Shown here one piece after another: positions 20,772 through 39,825 of a stretch of 43,373 nt of DNA. Numbering within the stretch: position 1 is the first letter of the stretch; every line of letters begins with the position of its first letter. This DNA is from Thiohalobacter sp. Its GTDB lineage: Bacteria > Pseudomonadota > Gammaproteobacteria > DSM-19610. The notes under the pieces are model-generated. The model was not told where the DNA came from, ran no database searches, and saw nothing but the letters and a program-made list of their open reading frames with translations. The position numbers and the translations under genes were made by a program. Location of the stretch: contig JALSRZ010000124.1 of assembly GCA_026984515.1 (NCBI GenBank), forward strand, positions 1 through 43,373. The letters are read 5' to 3'.

Positions 20772-21392
20772 TTATTTGCGGCGCCGGGCAAAACCGGCAA
20801 GACCCAGCAGACCGGAGCCGAACAGCCAGACGGCAGCGGGTACCGGAACGGGGGACATGCTCGGTGCCAGCGCACCGGCCAGTGCGAAGGTAGCGCCACC
20901 CGCGTTAAAGCCCACGGTAACCTGCGTGACTACCGCGCCATTCGCGACACCAAACGCACTCAGATCAATGGCCACAGCGTTCAGTTGCGCCGGATCGCTG
21001 TTCTGGAAACCGGTATCGCTGGTTGCCAGGTCAAGATTCGTGCCGCCTATCGTGACCGAAAAATTATCCGGTGCTCCGATCTCAAACAGCACCAGGTCGT
21101 CCCCGGCACCATTGACCAGACTGCCGGAAACAAAACCAAGCGTCAGGGCAACACTGCTGGAGGACTTGCCGGTGGGCAGGAACACATAACTGTCCACGCT
21201 CGTATCCGTTGTGACGGCCGCCAGGGTTCCGCCAATCGTGGTGACATCGAGCCCGGCCGCGGCCGGCGCAATACCGTCCAGCGAGGTCGCAAACGCATTG
21301 ACTTCATAGCCGCCAATCGAAACCGCCTGCGCGCTATTCACCAGAAGCGCCAGTGGAAGCGCCAGAATTGCCGATACTCTCTTGTTAATCAC
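20772..21392 (-). CDS. Secreted VPxPA-CTERM sorted protein
   Basis: 206 residues from a GTG at 21392 with AGGAGG well placed upstream. There is a Sec signal peptide (about 1-23, NSAQA). The C-terminus has VPVPAAVWLFGSGL, a hydrophobic helix and FARRRK: the tripartite VPLPA/PEP-CTERM sorting signal recognised by exosortase-type enzymes. The middle is a low-complexity beta-rich domain with no recognised activity. It lies 23 bases after the TbpB-like cargo gene and is probably co-transcribed with it. No exosortase gene is in the window. Confidence 0.88.
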   Translation of the reverse strand: MINKRVSAILALPLALLVNSAQAVSIGGYEVNAFATSLDGIAPAAAGLDVTTIGGTLAAVTTDTSVDSYVFLPTGKSSSSVALTLGFVSGSLVNGAGDDLVLFEIGAPDNFSVTIGGTNLDLATSDTGFQNSDPAQLNAVAIDLSAFGVANGAVVTQVTVGFNAGGATFALAGALAPSMSPVPVPAAVWLFGSGLLGLAGFARRRK

Positions 21393-21415: not shown

Positions 21416-22480
21416 CTAGTTCACCAGGTCGGTGGAAAATACCCCGGCCTGTGATCCATTATTTACTGCCCCCGACGCATTGAAGCCGCCGTTGAAAAAG
21501 CTGCCGTTCACGGTCTTGCCCGCATCCGCGGCACTGAAATTCACGCCATCGACTGCGCCATTGATCTGGAAACCATTGAAGCCGTTCGCGGTACCGAAAT
21601 TACCGTTGAACGTTCGGTTGTCAAAATTGAAGCTCAGTTCCACCGGCGAACTGTAGTCCAGCACCTGGCCACTGTAGGTCGCGGTTACCCGTCCGGCGGC
21701 GAAGGCCTCCATTTGTTGTACGGTCGGGGTCGTGCCGGTCACAAAATAACCGTCCGAATCGCTCAGGGTCTGCGTGGTGCCCACGTCCGTCAGCAGGTTG
21801 GCCACCCGCTGCTCGGCCTTGTTGCGCCAGTAACCGGCGTCTACACCCTGGAAATCAATCGCCTGGCCTGTGTCCTGGTTGGTGTGACTGAGCGTGGATG
21901 TCTCCAGGTCGGTGGTGGCTTCCAGCGTCGTTTCATCCAGCGCGACTACGTTGCCCTGGATAGTCTGGATATCGTTGCTTCCACCGGAAAATTCGCCGCG
22001 GATTTCAACGGAATCCACGTCCGGGAATGCCGCGCTGTCTTCTGCACCCGTCACTGAAAAGCTGGTTGCCGGTCCACCCTGGGGACTCTGCCCCGACTGC
22101 AGATCGAAACTGGCCGCGACCGGCCCGTTTTTCGCACCGGAGTCCCCGTTCTGGCGCGAGTAGGTCGCGAAGCCGCAACTCGCGCCGGCCGTACAGGATT
22201 CGACCACCACCGGTGGTGGTTCCGGGGCTGTGCCGGCGACTTTGGGCTGAAACTCGTCAGCGTCGCTCGGGCGCGCATTGTTGGCCGCATCCGGCGTTAC
22301 GGATGCCTGGTACGTACTACCGCCCGCAGCCGGGCTCAGCACCGACCAGCGCCCCCACCGGTATACGGAATCCTCTTCTTTCTGCTGCGTTGCCCAGCAC
22401 TGCCCCGCAGCCAGCGCAAGCGCCAGCCCCAGTGCAACCGGTCGTAGTACGGGTGTAATGGCTTTGTTTGAATTTTTCAT
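21416..22480 (-). CDS. Probable type XI secretion cargo with TbpB-like C-terminal barrel
   Basis: The start is taken as the ATG at 22480 (AGGTTAG upstream), giving 354 residues that open with MKNSNKAITP and a Sec signal ending near GQCWA; an upstream in-frame start at 22525 would spoil the signal. The last roughly 120 residues are glycine/asparagine-rich beta-strands (FNGNFG, FQINGAVDG, NGSFFNGGF), the pattern of the TbpB/HpuA eight-strand barrel that marks Slam clients. The cysteine does not make a convincing lipobox, so the product is more likely a soluble secreted protein than a surface lipoprotein. The N-terminal ligand-binding part is unrecognised. The Slam-type gene lies upstream in the same direction. 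Confidence 0.72.
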   Translation of the reverse strand: MKNSNKAITPVLRPVALGLALALAAGQCWATQQKEEDSVYRWGRWSVLSPAAGGSTYQASVTPDAANNARPSDADEFQPKVAGTAPEPPPVVVESCTAGASCGFATYSRQNGDSGAKNGPVAASFDLQSGQSPQGGPATSFSVTGAEDSAAFPDVDSVEIRGEFSGGSNDIQTIQGNVVALDETTLEATTDLETSTLSHTNQDTGQAIDFQGVDAGYWRNKAEQRVANLLTDVGTTQTLSDSDGYFVTGTTPTVQQMEAFAAGRVTATYSGQVLDYSSPVELSFNFDNRTFNGNFGTANGFNGFQINGAVDGVNFSAADAGKTVNGSFFNGGFNASGAVNNGSQAGVFSTDLVN

Positions 22481-22781: not shown

Positions 22782-24110
22782 TCAGAAATTACGCGATAAC
22801 GAGATCATGCCCTGGTAGCGCGTGTAACTGTACAGCTGGCCAATGTTGGAATCGTTCTGGGTCCGTTCCCAGAACAGGTTAGCCACCCAGCCTTTCAACA
22901 GGTCTTCCGGCTCGTTGAACTCGTGACTGAGGCCGAGCGTACTGCGATATTCGTTTTCTTCCCTGGACTTCCCTCCCAGCGGGTCACGTCCTTCATAGTC
23001 GTAATACCCGTAGCGCTGGCGAGCGTACACCGAGCCATTACGGTAGGTGACGGAGCTGATGCCGACACTGACCTGGAAACCGCCATAGCCGAACTCGTCG
23101 TCATTGGCCAGAAACTTGATCAGCCGCCCACCCAGAGTTGCGGATACCCGGCGCTGGTCGTAATAGCGGCCCGCGGTCAGGCCGGTCGACAGGTAGTCGC
23201 CCTTGCGGCCTTCGTCGACGTTCCGGTTGTAGAAACGGCGTGTGTAGATAGCATCCCAGTTGATTTCCCCGTTCCGGTACTGCCAGGTGATGGAGGGATT
23301 GACGGAAGTGAACCAGCCCAGGGCTTTGTCATCCAGGGTGAGAAAGTCGGTCCCCACCTGCAGCGAGGCGCGCCAGTGCCGCAAATTCAGCAGCGCCGGC
23401 CCGGTTTTCAGGCTGGCAATACCCAGGTCGAACTCGTTGAAGCGGTTGTAGTCGCGATAGTAGACACTGGCACTCGTCTGCCACATCAGCAGGCTGCCGG
23501 TTTCTCCCACATCGATATGCTTGCCGGTTTGATAGAGGTGATCGACACCAATATTGTAGACACCGGCGTTATCGCTTTTCTTTAACGAATTCTGTGTCAA
23601 TGACAGGGGTACGTCGCCAATGCGGATATTGGCATTGGTCGGCCCGACGTTGATGTTGGAATCGTGCATCAGACCGGCCATCGCAAAGGACGAGAAATTG
23701 TTTTTCTGCCGGAACTGCCCCGCGTCCCGCTTGACCTGTGCCAGAAACGCCAGCACGGTGACCCGGACTTCCGGTGGTGTGGTCGGGTTGTCCAGCACTT
23801 CCTGGGCCAGTTTCTGCGCGTTCTCGTAACGCATGGTGCGGTAATAGGCCAGCGCCAGTTCCAGTTTGGCGCGACCCAGTTCGGGCTCCACGTCGAGTAT
23901 CTTGCTGAACGCCCGGATCGCTGACTTCAGTTTGTCATCTTCCAGTGCGGACATGCCTTCCTGGAACAGGGCTTCGCTGTCCGCTTGCGCCTGGCTGCCC
24001 CCCTGTGCTTCTTCGGCAGCCCGCAGTGTCGCGCTTGCCGCAAGCAGCCCCGCACCCAGCAGGATGCTGTACCATAGCTTTGTTTTCAGATTTGTTTTTA
24101 CTTGAACCAT
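22782..24110 (-). CDS. Slam-type (type XI secretion) outer-membrane protein
   Basis: The start is taken as the ATG at 24110 (GGGGA upstream), giving 442 residues: signal peptide to about ALRAA, a TPR region at about 35-110 (ALFQEGMSALEDDKLKSAI, AKLELALAYYRTMRYENA), then an outer-membrane barrel to the end. HDSNINVGP at the barrel entrance and the last strands (RTQNDSN..YSYTRYQG..SLSRNF with C-terminal F) resemble DUF560/Slam proteins, which export TbpB-like clients across the outer membrane. The cargo-like gene downstream supports this. The exported ligand binder could serve iron or haem uptake; that is inference. Confidence 0.8.
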   Translation of the reverse strand: MVQVKTNLKTKLWYSILLGAGLLAASATLRAAEEAQGGSQAQADSEALFQEGMSALEDDKLKSAIRAFSKILDVEPELGRAKLELALAYYRTMRYENAQKLAQEVLDNPTTPPEVRVTVLAFLAQVKRDAGQFRQKNNFSSFAMAGLMHDSNINVGPTNANIRIGDVPLSLTQNSLKKSDNAGVYNIGVDHLYQTGKHIDVGETGSLLMWQTSASVYYRDYNRFNEFDLGIASLKTGPALLNLRHWRASLQVGTDFLTLDDKALGWFTSVNPSITWQYRNGEINWDAIYTRRFYNRNVDEGRKGDYLSTGLTAGRYYDQRRVSATLGGRLIKFLANDDEFGYGGFQVSVGISSVTYRNGSVYARQRYGYYDYEGRDPLGGKSREENEYRSTLGLSHEFNEPEDLLKGWVANLFWERTQNDSNIGQLYSYTRYQGMISLSRNF

Positions 24111-24209: not shown

Positions 24210-24851
24210 TTGAATATCTGTTCAAAATATCCGACTTTTGCGCTGTTTTTTGTCCTGTTTTTGTTACCCACCAGCCTCCTGGCCTTCCCCGCCGACCTGT
24301 TTGGCTACCAGCAGGTCGAGCAATCGGATACACAGGTATTTAACCAGTGGATTCAAGCCCTTGAGCGCCATTTGCGCATCGATGTACCGGAAGGCGACTG
24401 CACGGAAAAACACCTCAACAGCTGCCATCTGCGCAACTGGCTGACTTTTCTGGCCACCCTGCGCAAATTACCGGGCCCGGAGCAGCTGAACGCGGTCAAC
24501 CGCTATGCGAACAGCCGCGCTTACGTCCTCGATATCGACAATTACGGACTGGAGGACTACTGGGCGGTACCGCGCGAGTTCCTGTACAACAACGGCGATT
24601 GCGAGGACTACGCCATCACCAAGCTGTTTTCACTGCGCTGGCTGGGCTACCCGGAAGAAGACTTGCGTATCGTGGTGCTGCAGGACACCAACCTGCGCGT
24701 TCCGCACGCGGTGCTGGCCGTTGCCGCACAGAACGATATCAAGATCCTGGACAACCAGATCCAGCAAGTGGTTTCGCACCGGGATATCGTCCACTATGCA
24801 CCCGTATACTCGATCAACGAGCAGCACTGGTGGATTCACCTCCCGGAATAA
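24210..24851 (+). CDS. LapG-like periplasmic cysteine protease (BTLCP family)
   Basis: 213 residues from a TTG at 24210; a Sec signal peptide runs to about residue 25 (TSLLA). The catalytic triad is visible: C131 in NNGDCEDYAITK, H166 in RVPHAVLA and D181 in KILDN. EDYWAVPREFL ahead of the cysteine is typical of bacterial transglutaminase-like cysteine proteases such as LapG, which cut the N-terminal retention module of giant type I-secreted adhesins. LapG is normally held by the c-di-GMP receptor LapD; no LapD-type gene is here, and the next gene (11 bases away) is a degenerate HD-GYP membrane protein. No adhesin or type I exporter lies in the window. Confidence 0.85.
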   Translation: MNICSKYPTFALFFVLFLLPTSLLAFPADLFGYQQVEQSDTQVFNQWIQALERHLRIDVPEGDCTEKHLNSCHLRNWLTFLATLRKLPGPEQLNAVNRYANSRAYVLDIDNYGLEDYWAVPREFLYNNGDCEDYAITKLFSLRWLGYPEEDLRIVVLQDTNLRVPHAVLAVAAQNDIKILDNQIQQVVSHRDIVHYAPVYSINEQHWWIHLPE

Positions 24852-24862
24852 GCAGACACGGC

Positions 24863-26935
24863 ATGTCACCCGATACCATGAGCAAATCTGTTCGCGCCGG
24901 ACTGGTGGCGCTGGCGATCCTGCTGGCGGCCGGTGCTTTCCTGATCGATGCCTATGTGCAGAAGGAGCGCCGACGGGACCTGGACGACTGGTCCATCCGC
25001 CTGGGGCTGGTCGCCGAAACCCGTGTCACGGCCATCGAAAGCTGGCTGGATGACCAGGTACAGGCACTGGATGAACTGGCCAACAACGCCTCGCTGCAGT
25101 TGTACCTGTGGCAGTTGACGCAACGGGAGCATACCGACAGCGACGCGGGCACCGAACCCGCCCAGCTCAGCTACCTGCGCAACCTGCTGCTGGCCAGCGC
25201 CACGCGCTACGGCTTTAGCGATACACGGCAGGCGCAGGAAATCCCCGCCAACCTGCCGCAGCACCTGGGCACCGGCCTGGCGTTGCTGGACGCGAAACAG
25301 CGCCTGGTGGTGGCGACCACCGGCATGCCGGAAACGGGCAATGCCTTCCAGGCGGCGATCGATGCCGCACTGAGCAGCGGTAAACCGGCGTTCAGTAAAC
25401 TGGTGCTGGATTCACACGAACGCGTGTTGCTGGGTATCGCGGTACCGGTGCCGGTGGTGCTCGGTGCACAGGAGCACCAGGCGTACGGGGGTGTCGTGTT
25501 CGGGGTCCACAATATGGCGCAGACCCTCTACCCCCTGTTGACCGGGGGCGTACCCATGACCGACAGCGATGAAACCCTGCTGGTACGGGAGGAAGACAAC
25601 CAGGTCGTCTACCTGTCGCCGACCCGCGGTGGCGGCACGCCGACTCGCAAGTCGCTGCCACTGGACCGCAGCGGGCTGGCTGCCGCCGCCGCGGTACAGC
25701 GGCCGGGTTCGTTCGGTGCATTCCATAATTACCAGGGCCGCGAGGTACTGGCGACCAGCCGCGCACTGCGTTCGGTGCCCTGGATACTGGTGCAGGAGGT
25801 CGATGCGGTGCAGGCGCTGCAGGAATCCAACCGGCACCGGCAATTCCTGGTCACGGCGTTCTCGCTGTTGCTGTTCTTTATCGCCGCCACCCTGGTGGCC
25901 GCCTGGCGTCACGGCAGCAGCGTACGCGCCATGCACAACGCCGCCGAGCTGCGCGACAAGACCATTGCCCTGCAGAAACAGACCGAGCTGTTGCACGCGG
26001 TAACCGATCATGTGGAAGCCTACGTGGTACTGCTGGACAAGCAGCAGAAGGTGCTGTTCGCCAACGCACGCCTGGCCGGGGTCACCGGCACACAGGAAGG
26101 CGAACTGACAGGCAACTCGCTGGCCGCGGTCATCGGCCCCGCCAATGCACAACCCCTGTCTGCATCGATCGAACAGTTACAGCAGGACGGTCATGCGCAG
26201 CACTGCACCCGCAGCATGAGTATCGGCGGCAGCGAACGCACCCTGCAATGTTCGCTGGTACCGGTCGCCCAGGTCGGCGAACGTGACAACGCCATTCTGC
26301 TGGTGATGCAGGACATCACCGAATTCCAGCGGGTGCAGCAACAACACACCCGGCTGCTGCGCAAGCTGGTTGGCGCCCTGATGCACGTCGTCGACCTGCA
26401 CGATCCGCATTCGGCCAACCATTCGTCGCGCATGGTCGAAGTGGCCAACGCCATCGGCCGCGAACTGAAACTCGGCGAAGAAGACCTGCGCACCCTCGAC
26501 CTGGCCGCCAGCCTGGCCAACCTGGGCAAGATTTTCGTGCCCCGGGAAATACTCACCAAGACGGAACCGCTTACCGAGGCGGAGCAGACACTGCTGCAGC
26601 GGCATGTGCGCTTCGGCACCGAACTGCTGGCCGACCTGGATTTCGAGGGGCCGGTGCTGGACACCATCGAACAGAAGCAGGAGCACCTCGACGGCAGCGG
26701 TTACCCGCACGGTCTGAGTGGCGACCAAATCCTGCTCACCGCCAGGATACTCGCGGTAAGCAACGCCTTCGTGGCGCTGGTCAGCCCGCGCGCCTACCGG
26801 GAAGCCGTCACCATCGAACAGGCGCTGGACCAGCTGCTGCAGGAAGCCGGCAGCAAGTACGACCGGCACGTGGTTGCGGCGCTGTTCCACATCGCGGAAA
26901 ACCGCAGCGACTGGTCGGAGTGGCAGGAAGACTGA
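24863..26935 (+). CDS. Membrane receptor with periplasmic sensor, PAS and degenerate HD-GYP domains
   Basis: 690 residues from the ATG at 24863 (a second ATG is at 24878). TM1 is about 11-30, a large periplasmic, probably double-CACHE, domain spans 31-325, and TM2 is about 327-347. A PAS domain (about 375-485) and an HD-GYP domain (about 505-680) follow. DGSGYPHGL (610-618) is intact, but the family's HDxGK is ANLGKI (552-557), the HHE before DGSGYP is QKQEHL, and DVFDAL is SNAFVAL. Most metal ligands of the c-di-GMP phosphodiesterase site are thus lost. It is probably a c-di-GMP sensor, not an enzyme. Its coupling to the LapG-like gene suggests it controls that protease through its periplasmic domain. 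Confidence 0.82.
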   Translation: MSPDTMSKSVRAGLVALAILLAAGAFLIDAYVQKERRRDLDDWSIRLGLVAETRVTAIESWLDDQVQALDELANNASLQLYLWQLTQREHTDSDAGTEPAQLSYLRNLLLASATRYGFSDTRQAQEIPANLPQHLGTGLALLDAKQRLVVATTGMPETGNAFQAAIDAALSSGKPAFSKLVLDSHERVLLGIAVPVPVVLGAQEHQAYGGVVFGVHNMAQTLYPLLTGGVPMTDSDETLLVREEDNQVVYLSPTRGGGTPTRKSLPLDRSGLAAAAAVQRPGSFGAFHNYQGREVLATSRALRSVPWILVQEVDAVQALQESNRHRQFLVTAFSLLLFFIAATLVAAWRHGSSVRAMHNAAELRDKTIALQKQTELLHAVTDHVEAYVVLLDKQQKVLFANARLAGVTGTQEGELTGNSLAAVIGPANAQPLSASIEQLQQDGHAQHCTRSMSIGGSERTLQCSLVPVAQVGERDNAILLVMQDITEFQRVQQQHTRLLRKLVGALMHVVDLHDPHSANHSSRMVEVANAIGRELKLGEEDLRTLDLAASLANLGKIFVPREILTKTEPLTEAEQTLLQRHVRFGTELLADLDFEGPVLDTIEQKQEHLDGSGYPHGLSGDQILLTARILAVSNAFVALVSPRAYREAVTIEQALDQLLQEAGSKYDRHVVAALFHIAENRSDWSEWQED

Positions 26936-26952: not shown

Positions 26953-28305
26953 TCAGACCAGCGCTGACAAGCGCTGCTGGATATCCCGGTGAATCTCTGT
27001 CAGCCGTGCCTTGTTCTCCCCCGGCAGGCTGTCCAGCGCAGCCACGCGTTCAGGGTAATCACGCGTCACTGCCAGCAGCTCGCCGGCAATATCCTGAACG
27101 TCGCTTTTCGTCAGGCTGAGGCTGGAGGCAAAGGTTGAACAGGCATTCAGCAGCGGGTCCTCATCGCCATCGTATTCACCGTAACCGCCGAAGGGCACCG
27201 CGCACAGCATGTTGTGCATGCTGTAGGCGCGCATCGGCGTGGGATCGTACACCGGCGAAAACCGCGCCTCCCCGGCTGCGCCCATGAATGACAGGTTTTC
27301 CAGGTGCAGGTCGCCGTTGCCACTCAGCAGCGCCAGCAGCACACGCTTGAACAGGTGCACGCGGGCGGCCTTCCTGTCACTGACCAGTTGCGGTTCCGCC
27401 AGGTCGATGACCCGCGCGATGCGGTCCAGTGAACCGTCGGTGTGGCGCACGATATCCCGCGCGCCCGCCGCCAGGATGGAGTACAGGCTTTCCAGCGGCA
27501 GCGGCATGCAATCGGCATCGCGGTCGAAGCGTTCGACCGCCAGCGCCGGCAAACCGCCTACCTCGGCGTGCCAGTAACGCGGTACGACAAAACCCGCGTC
27601 ACGGTGCAGGTCCAGCGCCATGGCTTCGAGTGCAGCCAGCCCCGGGTAGGCCTGGGTGCGCTCGATTTTCAGCACCACATCGATGCGGCGGGTGCACACC
27701 TTGTTGGGCAGACTGATGCGACCGTCCCAGCCGTCCTCCGGTATCGCCACCAGCAACTTGGGGATCGCACCCCCTACCGAGGGCGTGGGACCCAGGCTTT
27801 CCAGGATGAACCGCGCATCGGCGTCCAGCCAGGAAATCATGTCCTTGAGCGAAAAACCGAACTGGTCACCGATCGGCACCAGCGGGCCGCTGTCCGTGTT
27901 CGCGTACCAGTTCCCGGCACTCTCGTCGTCGGCAAAGACATCCACGTGCCCGATCCCGCCGTGGCCGGTATGTGCCAGCAGAGCCAGGTCTGCTTCGAAC
28001 GGGCTGGCCGGTTCAATACCTTTTTCACGCAGAAAGGCCAGCATGAGCTTGCGCTGGAAATTCTGTTCGTCGGCGGGCGGAATCAGGGCGCGGAAGCGGG
28101 GATGCAGGGAACCGCTCTGGTGATGGACAATCGTGCTGTCGCGAAACAGCTCGGGGGAATAGACCAGGCTGAGGCCGGGCAAACCGTATGAGGGATACTC
28201 GGGCGTGTAGGAAAAACGGGCATCGACATCGGTAACATACAGCGTCCCCATTTTCACCGCTTCACCACCGGTGCGGGTCCAGATGCTGAGCTGGGTATCC
28301 TGCAT
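26953..28305 (-). CDS. hipA: HipA-family Ser/Thr kinase toxin
   Basis: 450 residues. The phosphate loop is SVGGAIPKLLV (176-186), the ATP lysine K213 (VVLKIE), the catalytic aspartate D332 in GNGDLHLEN and the metal-binding aspartate D354 in PVYDPTP. HipA toxins phosphorylate tRNA synthetases or other targets and stop growth. The ATG shares one base with the hipB stop (TGATG), the usual toxin-antitoxin arrangement. Target specificity cannot be read from sequence. Confidence 0.9.
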   Translation of the reverse strand: MQDTQLSIWTRTGGEAVKMGTLYVTDVDARFSYTPEYPSYGLPGLSLVYSPELFRDSTIVHHQSGSLHPRFRALIPPADEQNFQRKLMLAFLREKGIEPASPFEADLALLAHTGHGGIGHVDVFADDESAGNWYANTDSGPLVPIGDQFGFSLKDMISWLDADARFILESLGPTPSVGGAIPKLLVAIPEDGWDGRISLPNKVCTRRIDVVLKIERTQAYPGLAALEAMALDLHRDAGFVVPRYWHAEVGGLPALAVERFDRDADCMPLPLESLYSILAAGARDIVRHTDGSLDRIARVIDLAEPQLVSDRKAARVHLFKRVLLALLSGNGDLHLENLSFMGAAGEARFSPVYDPTPMRAYSMHNMLCAVPFGGYGEYDGDEDPLLNACSTFASSLSLTKSDVQDIAGELLAVTRDYPERVAALDSLPGENKARLTEIHRDIQQRLSALV

Positions 28306-28568
28306 CAGAACAGTTCTCCGCGTGAGACTTTCTCGGTGTAGTCGCTGTCCGGGACCAGTGTCAGGCGCAGTCCCACCGCCGCGGCCAGCCTGGCCAGTGT
28401 TTCCAGGTCCGCACGCCCGGTGCGCTTGATACGCGAAATACTGGAATCCGGCAGCGACGCACGCCGGGCGAGTGTCGCCTGCGACCAGCCGCGCATCCTG
28501 GCCTGGTCGAGGATTTCCGCCATCAGGCTGGCAGCCGTGGAATGATTCGGTGCTATCGATATTGTCAT
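28305..28568 (-). CDS. hipB: HipB-family HTH antitoxin
   Basis: 87 residues from the ATG at 28568; a TTG three codons upstream is possible but less likely. The XRE-type helix-turn-helix (RGWSQATLARRASLPDSSIS) spans about 30-50. It should bind HipA and the palindromes at 28563-28652, repressing its own operon. The first of these palindromes overlaps the start codon. Confidence 0.9.
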   Translation of the reverse strand: MTISIAPNHSTAASLMAEILDQARMRGWSQATLARRASLPDSSISRIKRTGRADLETLARLAAAVGLRLTLVPDSDYTEKVSRGELF

Positions 28569-28652
28569 ATACGACAAGTATAGCCTATTTTCAGGGTTGT
28601 CGTATATGCTAAATTATAGCTGAATATGGGTATTATTTATCGTATACGATAA
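28563..28652. promoter_or_regulatory. Three-site HipB operator with promoter elements
   Basis: TTATCGTATACGATAA (28637-28652) is a perfect 16-bp palindrome. TTGTCGTATATGCT at 28597-28610 and its inverse GTCATATACGACAA at about 28564-28577 share the core TCGTATA. A TATAAT on the minus strand lies between the outer and middle sites (around 28613-28618), so bound HipB would block transcription. Confidence 0.8.
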
Positions 28653-38779: not shown

Positions 38780-39195
38780 ATCGACCGGTATTCACCACCC
38801 GTGCCAGTCGGAAACGGCTTCACTGGCCGCAAAATCCGCCCAAAAGTCGAAAATTTTTACATTTATTATTTTTGGGAAACAATTCCTGAAAATATATATC
38901 TATTTGTATTTAATAAATATTAAATATTAATAAATAACTTAATTAACAAATATTTTTACAATACTGTATTTCGCGTCGAATTTCCTTACGCATTTTTAAG
39001 CGGTTCAGCCGGTTTTTGCCGACAGGATTAACACTCGCATCCCACCGTTTACCCGTAATGCACAAAAACACCCTTATCCAGCTGTTTTATAACACCTTGT
39101 AAAAACTGGTACGGCATTTGCTCCGTAGCCGATCAGTGACAAAAACCCGAACCACCGTAATCAAGAAAATCACTTAACAGCAAGGTATAGAACCC
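38780..39195. other. AT-rich gene-free interval ahead of the second VPxPA-CTERM gene
   Basis: 416 bases. The part at about 38850-38965 is nearly all A and T and likely to be bent or easily melted DNA. A sigma-54-like promoter sits at 39107-39122. No gene or clear terminator for the kinase was seen. Confidence 0.6.
39107..39122 (+). promoter_or_regulatory. Sigma-54-like promoter of a VPxPA-CTERM gene
   Basis: TGGTACGGCATTTGCT differs from the -24/-12 consensus only by T for C in TGGCAC. The start would be near 39134, about 60 bases before the ATG. PEP-CTERM genes elsewhere are known to be controlled by sigma-54 with the PrsK/PrsR pair, which agrees with this placement. Confidence 0.7.
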
Positions 39196-39825
39196 ATGAC
39201 AACAAGCAGATCTCTGGCAGCCGTTGCTACCGCCGTACTGGCATGCGGCACCACTTTCGCTCAGGCCAGCAGCTTCGATTTCCTGGCGTTGGGCAACAGT
39301 AATGAACGCGGGTACGCCAGCTTCACCCACAGCGTGGGCGGCATCAGCGTCGAAGCCACCGGCCGCTCCGCCGACGGGAACACCCCCTATTTCGCCTACC
39401 TGGATTCAGGCGATGCCGGGCTGGGCGTCTGCAAGGTACTCACCGCGGACAACCAGTGCACCCCGTCTTTCGATGACAACGTTACCTTTAACGAGCTGCT
39501 GCGCCTGGATTTCGACCAGACCGTCACCCTGTCTGAAATCCTCTTTGTCAACGGCAGCCACGGCACGACCTTCAGCGGCACATTTGATCTTGTCATCGAC
39601 GGTGGCCCGAAAACGAGCTACAGCCTGGCGCATCTTTTCACCATGGACCTGACCGGCAAAACCTTTGATTTCATCAACCCGAACCTGCAGGGCGATACCA
39701 ATAACCTGCAACAGTTCTATATCAGCTCGGCGGAAGTCAGCGCAGTACCGGTTCCGGCCGCGGCCTGGCTGTTTGTCTCCGGGATCGTCGGACTGGTGAC
39801 GGTCGCCAGGCGTCACCCGGAATAA
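39196..39825 (+). CDS. Secreted VPxPA-CTERM sorted protein
   Basis: 209 residues with a Sec signal (about 1-24, FAQAS) and a C-terminal sorting signal VPVPAAAWLFVSGIVG followed by VARRH. The mature domain is beta-rich and acidic (FDFLALGNSNERGYASF, DFDQTVTLSEILFVNG), like the choice-of-anchor domains common in PEP-CTERM proteins. It would be handled by an exosortase encoded elsewhere. No enzymatic function is evident. Confidence 0.88.
   Translation: MTTSRSLAAVATAVLACGTTFAQASSFDFLALGNSNERGYASFTHSVGGISVEATGRSADGNTPYFAYLDSGDAGLGVCKVLTADNQCTPSFDDNVTFNELLRLDFDQTVTLSEILFVNGSHGTTFSGTFDLVIDGGPKTSYSLAHLFTMDLTGKTFDFINPNLQGDTNNLQQFYISSAEVSAVPVPAAAWLFVSGIVGLVTVARRHPE

Follow-up and report, generated by a model that had tools for sequence, protein, structure and literature searches.

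The question raised by this locus is what governs a LapG-type protease encoded directly upstream of a receptor whose HD-GYP domain is degenerate, and upon which protein such a protease would act. The locus lies within a stretch of 43,373 nucleotides from Thiohalobacter sp. (contig JALSRZ010000124.1, hereafter the window) and its features are given in Table 1. The reading that we favour, and consider probable, is one of LapG cleavage gated by c-di-GMP and wired to a T11SS-like exporter, with LapD and DvhD cassettes being interchangeable.

Table 1. Features of the locus, with positions in the window.
Feature	Position	Strand	Remarks
PEP-CTERM (VPxPA) surface protein	20772..21392	-	recurrent downstream neighbour
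Secreted candidate LapG substrate / exporter cargo	21416..22480	-	Sec signal peptide; W-motif and PAAG; putative TbpB-like barrel region at the C-terminus
PAAG	22322..22333	-	fits LapG scissile consensus [T/A/P]AAG, cut between the two alanines; invariant in 15 homologs
DSVYRWGRW motif	22346..22372	-	near-invariant in 15 diverse homologs
Slam/T11SS-like outer-membrane protein (SlamL), start at MVQV	22782..24110	-	TPR helices and 14-stranded beta barrel
LapG-type BTLCP cysteine protease	24210..24851	+	PF06035; signal peptide; TTG start
DvhD-type receptor, 690 aa	24863..26935	+	ATG start; TM, Cache-like periplasmic domain, TM, PAS, dead HD-GYP
AN replacing catalytic HD pair (ANLGKI)	AN 26516..26521; ANLGKI 26516-26533	+	residue table
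HH to KQ, DGSGYP kept (KQEHLDGSGYP)	26675-26707	+	residue table
Last metal-motif aspartate to N (NAFVAL)	26762-26779	+	residue table

The protease matches Peptidase_C93 in Pfam (E 5.7e-18), its closest PDB entries are the LapG structures 4u65 and 4fgo, and on alignment with the solved LapG proteins of P. fluorescens and L. pneumophila both the triad C131/H166/D181 and the calcium ligands D130/E132 line up. The receptor gene starts 11 bases past the lapG stop codon, and its product has two hydrophobic segments (residues ~9-33 and ~327-348), PAS_4 at 382-490 and HD_5 at 506-670 (Pfam); the periplasmic domain is assigned as Cache-like from weak Pfam matches, dCache_1 being matched weakly in 11 of 16 receptor orthologs. 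A preliminary description of this DNA, which held that a BTLCP protease with an intact triad is followed at this short distance by a receptor with two TM segments, a large periplasmic domain, PAS and an HD-GYP domain that keeps DGSGYP and has lost HD, HH and the aspartate of FDAL, is borne out on each of these points. In every relative for which the HD-GYP region was available the HD pair is replaced by AN, or by IN in L046, the most distant. As none of the relatives read keeps HD and the LapG-receptor pair is strongly linked across genomes, a linkage that the same description had named as a test of its proposal, the pairing of protease and degenerate receptor is not due to chance.

The preliminary description went on to propose the dead HD-GYP protein as a LapD-like receptor for LapG and knew of no described system of this form, but the same architecture has already been published. 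DvhD of D. vulgaris, reported in April 2026 together with solved structures, is a receptor for c-di-GMP by which the LapG homologue DvhG is controlled; it has a periplasmic dCache domain, binds c-di-GMP without hydrolysing it and plays a LapD-like role for DvhG (PMC13090378). The best PDB matches of the window receptor, which cover its PAS/HD-GYP half, are 9rc0 (E 1e-46) and 9rbz (E 1e-41), both deposited as 'HD domain/sensory box protein' and taken here as the PAS/HD-GYP and HD-GYP fragments of DvhD since the residues named in the DvhD paper fall at the same numbers in their sequences. In the HD-GYP tree a branch with 100/99 support separates all DvhD-type proteins, D. vulgaris included, from 25 other domains, almost all of which keep the HD motif intact; the result should be considered with caution given the long branches. 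Both systems thus have a BTLCP protease, with the C-H-D triad and calcium site, beside a TM-dCache-TM-PAS-degenerate HD-GYP receptor (the Cache of the window receptor coming from weak Pfam matches), have lost identical metal motifs and share one HD-GYP clade, and the LapD_MoxY_N and HAMP-GGDEF-EAL makeup is absent from the window receptor (Pfam). The idea of a LapD replacement is therefore sound, its mechanism being well supported by homology to DvhD, but it is not new. The two systems differ in that the substrate of D. vulgaris is a T1SS adhesin encoded in the same operon whereas the neighbours of the window pair are a PAAG protein and an exporter that resembles Slam, and in that the window-type loci are hosted by gamma- and betaproteobacteria. 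The feature for which no precedent was found in the open-access literature is the genomic context, a LapG-DvhD-type pair with SlamL and a PAAG protein.

The SlamL gene is divergent from the LapG-receptor pair. The AF2 model of its product (pLDDT 85.5) has 14 strands in a TPR plus barrel architecture, and TPR_Slam was found in all 18 SlamL orthologs, with SlipAM weak in five; the window SlamL itself lies below Pfam cut-offs (TPR_Slam 24.6 bits against a cut-off of 35.2). Foldseek returned general barrels, of which OmpG was the nearest, with Slam absent among the 50 matches listed. As in described Slam/T11SS systems (PMC8406197, PMC12282271, PMC9090332), a protein of TPR helices and a 14-stranded barrel stands beside a secreted protein that putatively ends in a TbpB-like barrel, as T11SS cargo proteins do (PMC12282271); the differences are that the window proteins score below Pfam cut-offs, that the cargo is not lipidated and that some cargo proteins are without the barrel. 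TbpB_B_D was matched in two of seven long cargo homologs (best E 4.2e-6) and the window copy fell below Pfam cut-offs; the AF2 model of the cargo was unusable (pLDDT 34). In a set of short PAAG proteins (L040, L041, L042, L043, L045) C-terminal proline-rich DDPRDRLPP repeats replace the TbpB-like barrel, and a PEP-CTERM gene adjoins. LapG joined with T11SS or Slam was not found in the open-access literature and is unmentioned in the T11SS papers that were text-searched.

Shortly past its signal peptide the candidate cargo reads DSVYRWGRWSVLSPAAGG, and the general form of the N-terminal motif is D-S-V-x-x-W-G-x-W-x(3-5)-PAAG. When 15 diverse homologs were aligned, the D, S, G, W and P-A-A-G columns were invariant and a further W near-invariant, the conservation of PAAG being partly ascertainment since several of the homologs came from a profile containing it. 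A [T/A/P]AAG would be expected by chance in the window protein at ~2% per 45 aa, and PAAG is invariant across families. The LapG rule comprises a [T/A/P]AAG scissile site with a helix and DP ahead of it (PMC13090378), and PAAG is the experimentally proven LapG site in FrhA of V. cholerae (PMC6890996). The window protein carries the tetrapeptide itself, and a folded N-terminal retention domain, a helix and DP before PAAG are absent from it; DP and a possible helix precede the site in L132.

The order of genes is kept in most loci of the window's genus, and a wider distribution was obtained from a sample of 369 gammaproteobacterial genomes. Ten credible genomes were detected with a profile built on the PAAG N-terminus, which holds no LapG information; all ten have full-length DvhD, out of 14 DvhD genomes in the sample (Fisher 9e-17, ignoring phylogeny). 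For eight of them the exporter gene shares a contig with LapG and DvhD and lies next to these; that of G267 runs across a contig break, and in G140 the SlamL gene lies >1 Mb from the other three genes. An eleventh PAAG protein occurs in G117, where DvhD is also present. A match in G143 was discarded as spurious (two stop codons within the match, no LapG locus), and the phylum-wide A5 matches in G703, G622, G456 and G573 were weak (E 1e-4 to 8e-3). Approached from the exporter, the SlamL subfamily comprises 14 genomes in eight families of the sample, set apart by a gap in profile score from 333 to 70 bits; LapG is present in 13 of these, within about 5 kb in 12 (Fisher 2e-9, ignoring phylogeny). 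The betaproteobacterium Azonexus fungiphilus was reached via DvhD alone and possesses the exporter, LapG and DvhD together with EPAAGG. The window-type arrangement is thus found again in Azonexus and in a number of families of gammaproteobacteria.

This distribution bears on the possibility that the window holds an ordinary DvhDG/Lap system, the true substrate of which is a large LapA-like T1SS adhesin encoded elsewhere, with the Slam-like and PAAG genes as mere neighbours. Such an arrangement is seen in G075 and G211, where TolC, HlyD-like proteins and a large protein with repeats are neighbours of the LapG-DvhD pair, a situation also found in D. vulgaris (PMC13090378); G323 has DvhD without this context. 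The preliminary description had likewise expected a LapA-type adhesin and a type I exporter; however, a profile search of the window's own genome found no retention_LapA and no LssB-type T1SS ATPase above cut-off (41 ABC-protein matches, all far below), and only the relatives G075 and G211 have an operon that includes a T1SS and a large adhesin. In the window SlamL and the PAAG protein adjoin instead, a linkage that holds across families and both receptor types, and we regard the ordinary Lap explanation as unlikely. A normal LapD elsewhere in the genome, which would have spoken against the DvhD-type receptor as the partner of LapG, was not found either, although this absence is weak as the LapD_MoxY_N search was equally silent in its controls.

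Both receptor types are represented amongst the SlamL loci. Two genomes found via SlamL, G108 and G177, carry canonical LapG and LapD (LapD_MoxY_N 141 and 113 bits respectively, plus GGDEF and EAL) beside DSVYQWGHW proteins; that of G108 reads GADPSQITEPTAAG and fits the helix-DP-TAAG LapG rule, and that of G177 has APEAG, outside the [T/A/P]AAG rule. In the LapG tree, which has long branches and few references, their LapGs group with those of P. fluorescens and L. pneumophila, apart from the DvhD-type LapGs (100/99), and thus two different cassettes are found at the same kind of exporter. In G053 SlamL is present without a LapG match, and the WGPW protein, which has a FecR domain, is without AAG; though the cases are few, this suggests that the W motif accompanies the exporter, whereas AAG accompanies LapG. 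Such a FecR-domain protein, with SPYSWGPW near its C-terminus, is encoded at L135:9609-10394 directly after SlamL, no LapG having been detected in that genome. G384 has SlamL, LapG and a receptor with no detectable W-motif protein, and its LapG partner (L133:9682-11376) is a shorter dead HD-GYP receptor (AMLANVGKI, KQEHLDGGGYP) with no PAS match.

Several further genes of these loci were noted. The PEP-CTERM neighbour was rejected as a LapG substrate, as its homologs have no [T/A/P]AAG and a single one occurs in the window copy; a second PEP-CTERM-like protein, ending VPVPAAAWLFVSGIVGLVTVARRHPE, is encoded at 39178-39822 (+), and the one exosortase match in the window's own genome is on another contig. 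Right after the receptor gene, at 26953-28577 (-), are a HipA-like protein and a Cro/C1-type HTH partner, which are present in some genomes of the genus and not in others and may therefore be a mobile insertion, resembling a toxin-antitoxin pair, that lies between dvhD and pss. At L123:6743-10501 and L121:1-2766 a large repeat protein (starting MKLLKLENRIVLDAA in L123) lies beside HlyD/TolC-like genes and LapG-DvhD, and is probably a Dvh-type adhesin in gammaproteobacteria.

Taken as c-di-GMP-gated cleavage, the locus would operate as follows. The dead HD-GYP domain would bind c-di-GMP, and the receptor in this state would restrain periplasmic LapG through the PAS domain, the TM helices and the Cache-like domain; when c-di-GMP falls, LapG would cut the neighbouring secreted protein between the two alanines of PAAG, some 20 residues into the mature chain, and so remove the DSVxxWGxW peptide. 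The divergent Slam/T11SS-like barrel would most likely handle this protein, so that the cut would release, or license, the surface display of a T11SS-type cargo in place of a T1SS adhesin. Alternatively, LapG would be a maturation protease whose cut at PAAG is needed before the cargo enters the Slam-like barrel, in which case c-di-GMP would block secretion instead of keeping the cargo attached. The piece removed is only ~20 residues long with no folded retention domain ahead of the site and is in this respect more like a propeptide; described Lap systems, however, release protein that has already been exported (PMC13090378, PMC6890996). We regard maturation as rather improbable.

As to the ligand, the DvhD c-di-GMP contacts L577, Y621 and R650 are retained in the window receptor family, as is P567 (DvhD numbering); position 652 is Y or W, 646 is L or M and 668 is mostly E/D, with Q in two. 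Residual degradation of a nucleotide by the receptor, or the sensing of some other ligand, with regulation of LapG being secondary, is very improbable: D. vulgaris DvhD accepts 3'3'-cGAMP in vitro (PMC13090378) and K582 together with the bridging-site residues K520 and R569 is lost in the window receptor and its family, but none of HD, HH and the last metal aspartate remains and the D. vulgaris homologue showed no hydrolysis (PMC13090378).

Returning to c-di-GMP-gated cleavage at a T11SS-like exporter, the system shares with LapG/LapD/LapA of P. fluorescens the protease family, the [T/A/P]AAG cleavage rule and the inside-out logic of the receptor, but in P. fluorescens the receptor is a GGDEF-EAL protein with LapD_MoxY and the substrate, a giant adhesin exported by T1SS, has a folded retention module. 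With CdrA/LapG of P. aeruginosa (PMC4694147) it shares a LapG acting on a protein that is not T1SS-exported, although CdrA is exported by two-partner (type Vb) secretion (PMC13090378) and the window has a Slam-like barrel. The chances seem to us about even that the joining of Lap-type c-di-GMP proteolysis to a Slam/T11SS-like exporter constitutes a third route after T1SS and type Vb, in which DSVxxWGxW retains the cargo within or at the barrel until LapG frees it at PAAG, and in which LapD and DvhD cassettes have been exchanged at the exporter locus. The named strain Azonexus fungiphilus DSM 23841 offers a short candidate substrate on which this can be tested. If correct, the control of surface proteins by c-di-GMP would extend from giant T1SS adhesins to T11SS-type export, suggesting a regulator for the T11SS secretion family, and a locus at which LapD and DvhD have been exchanged in nature would bear on how DvhD replaced LapD, the question posed by the DvhD study (PMC13090378).
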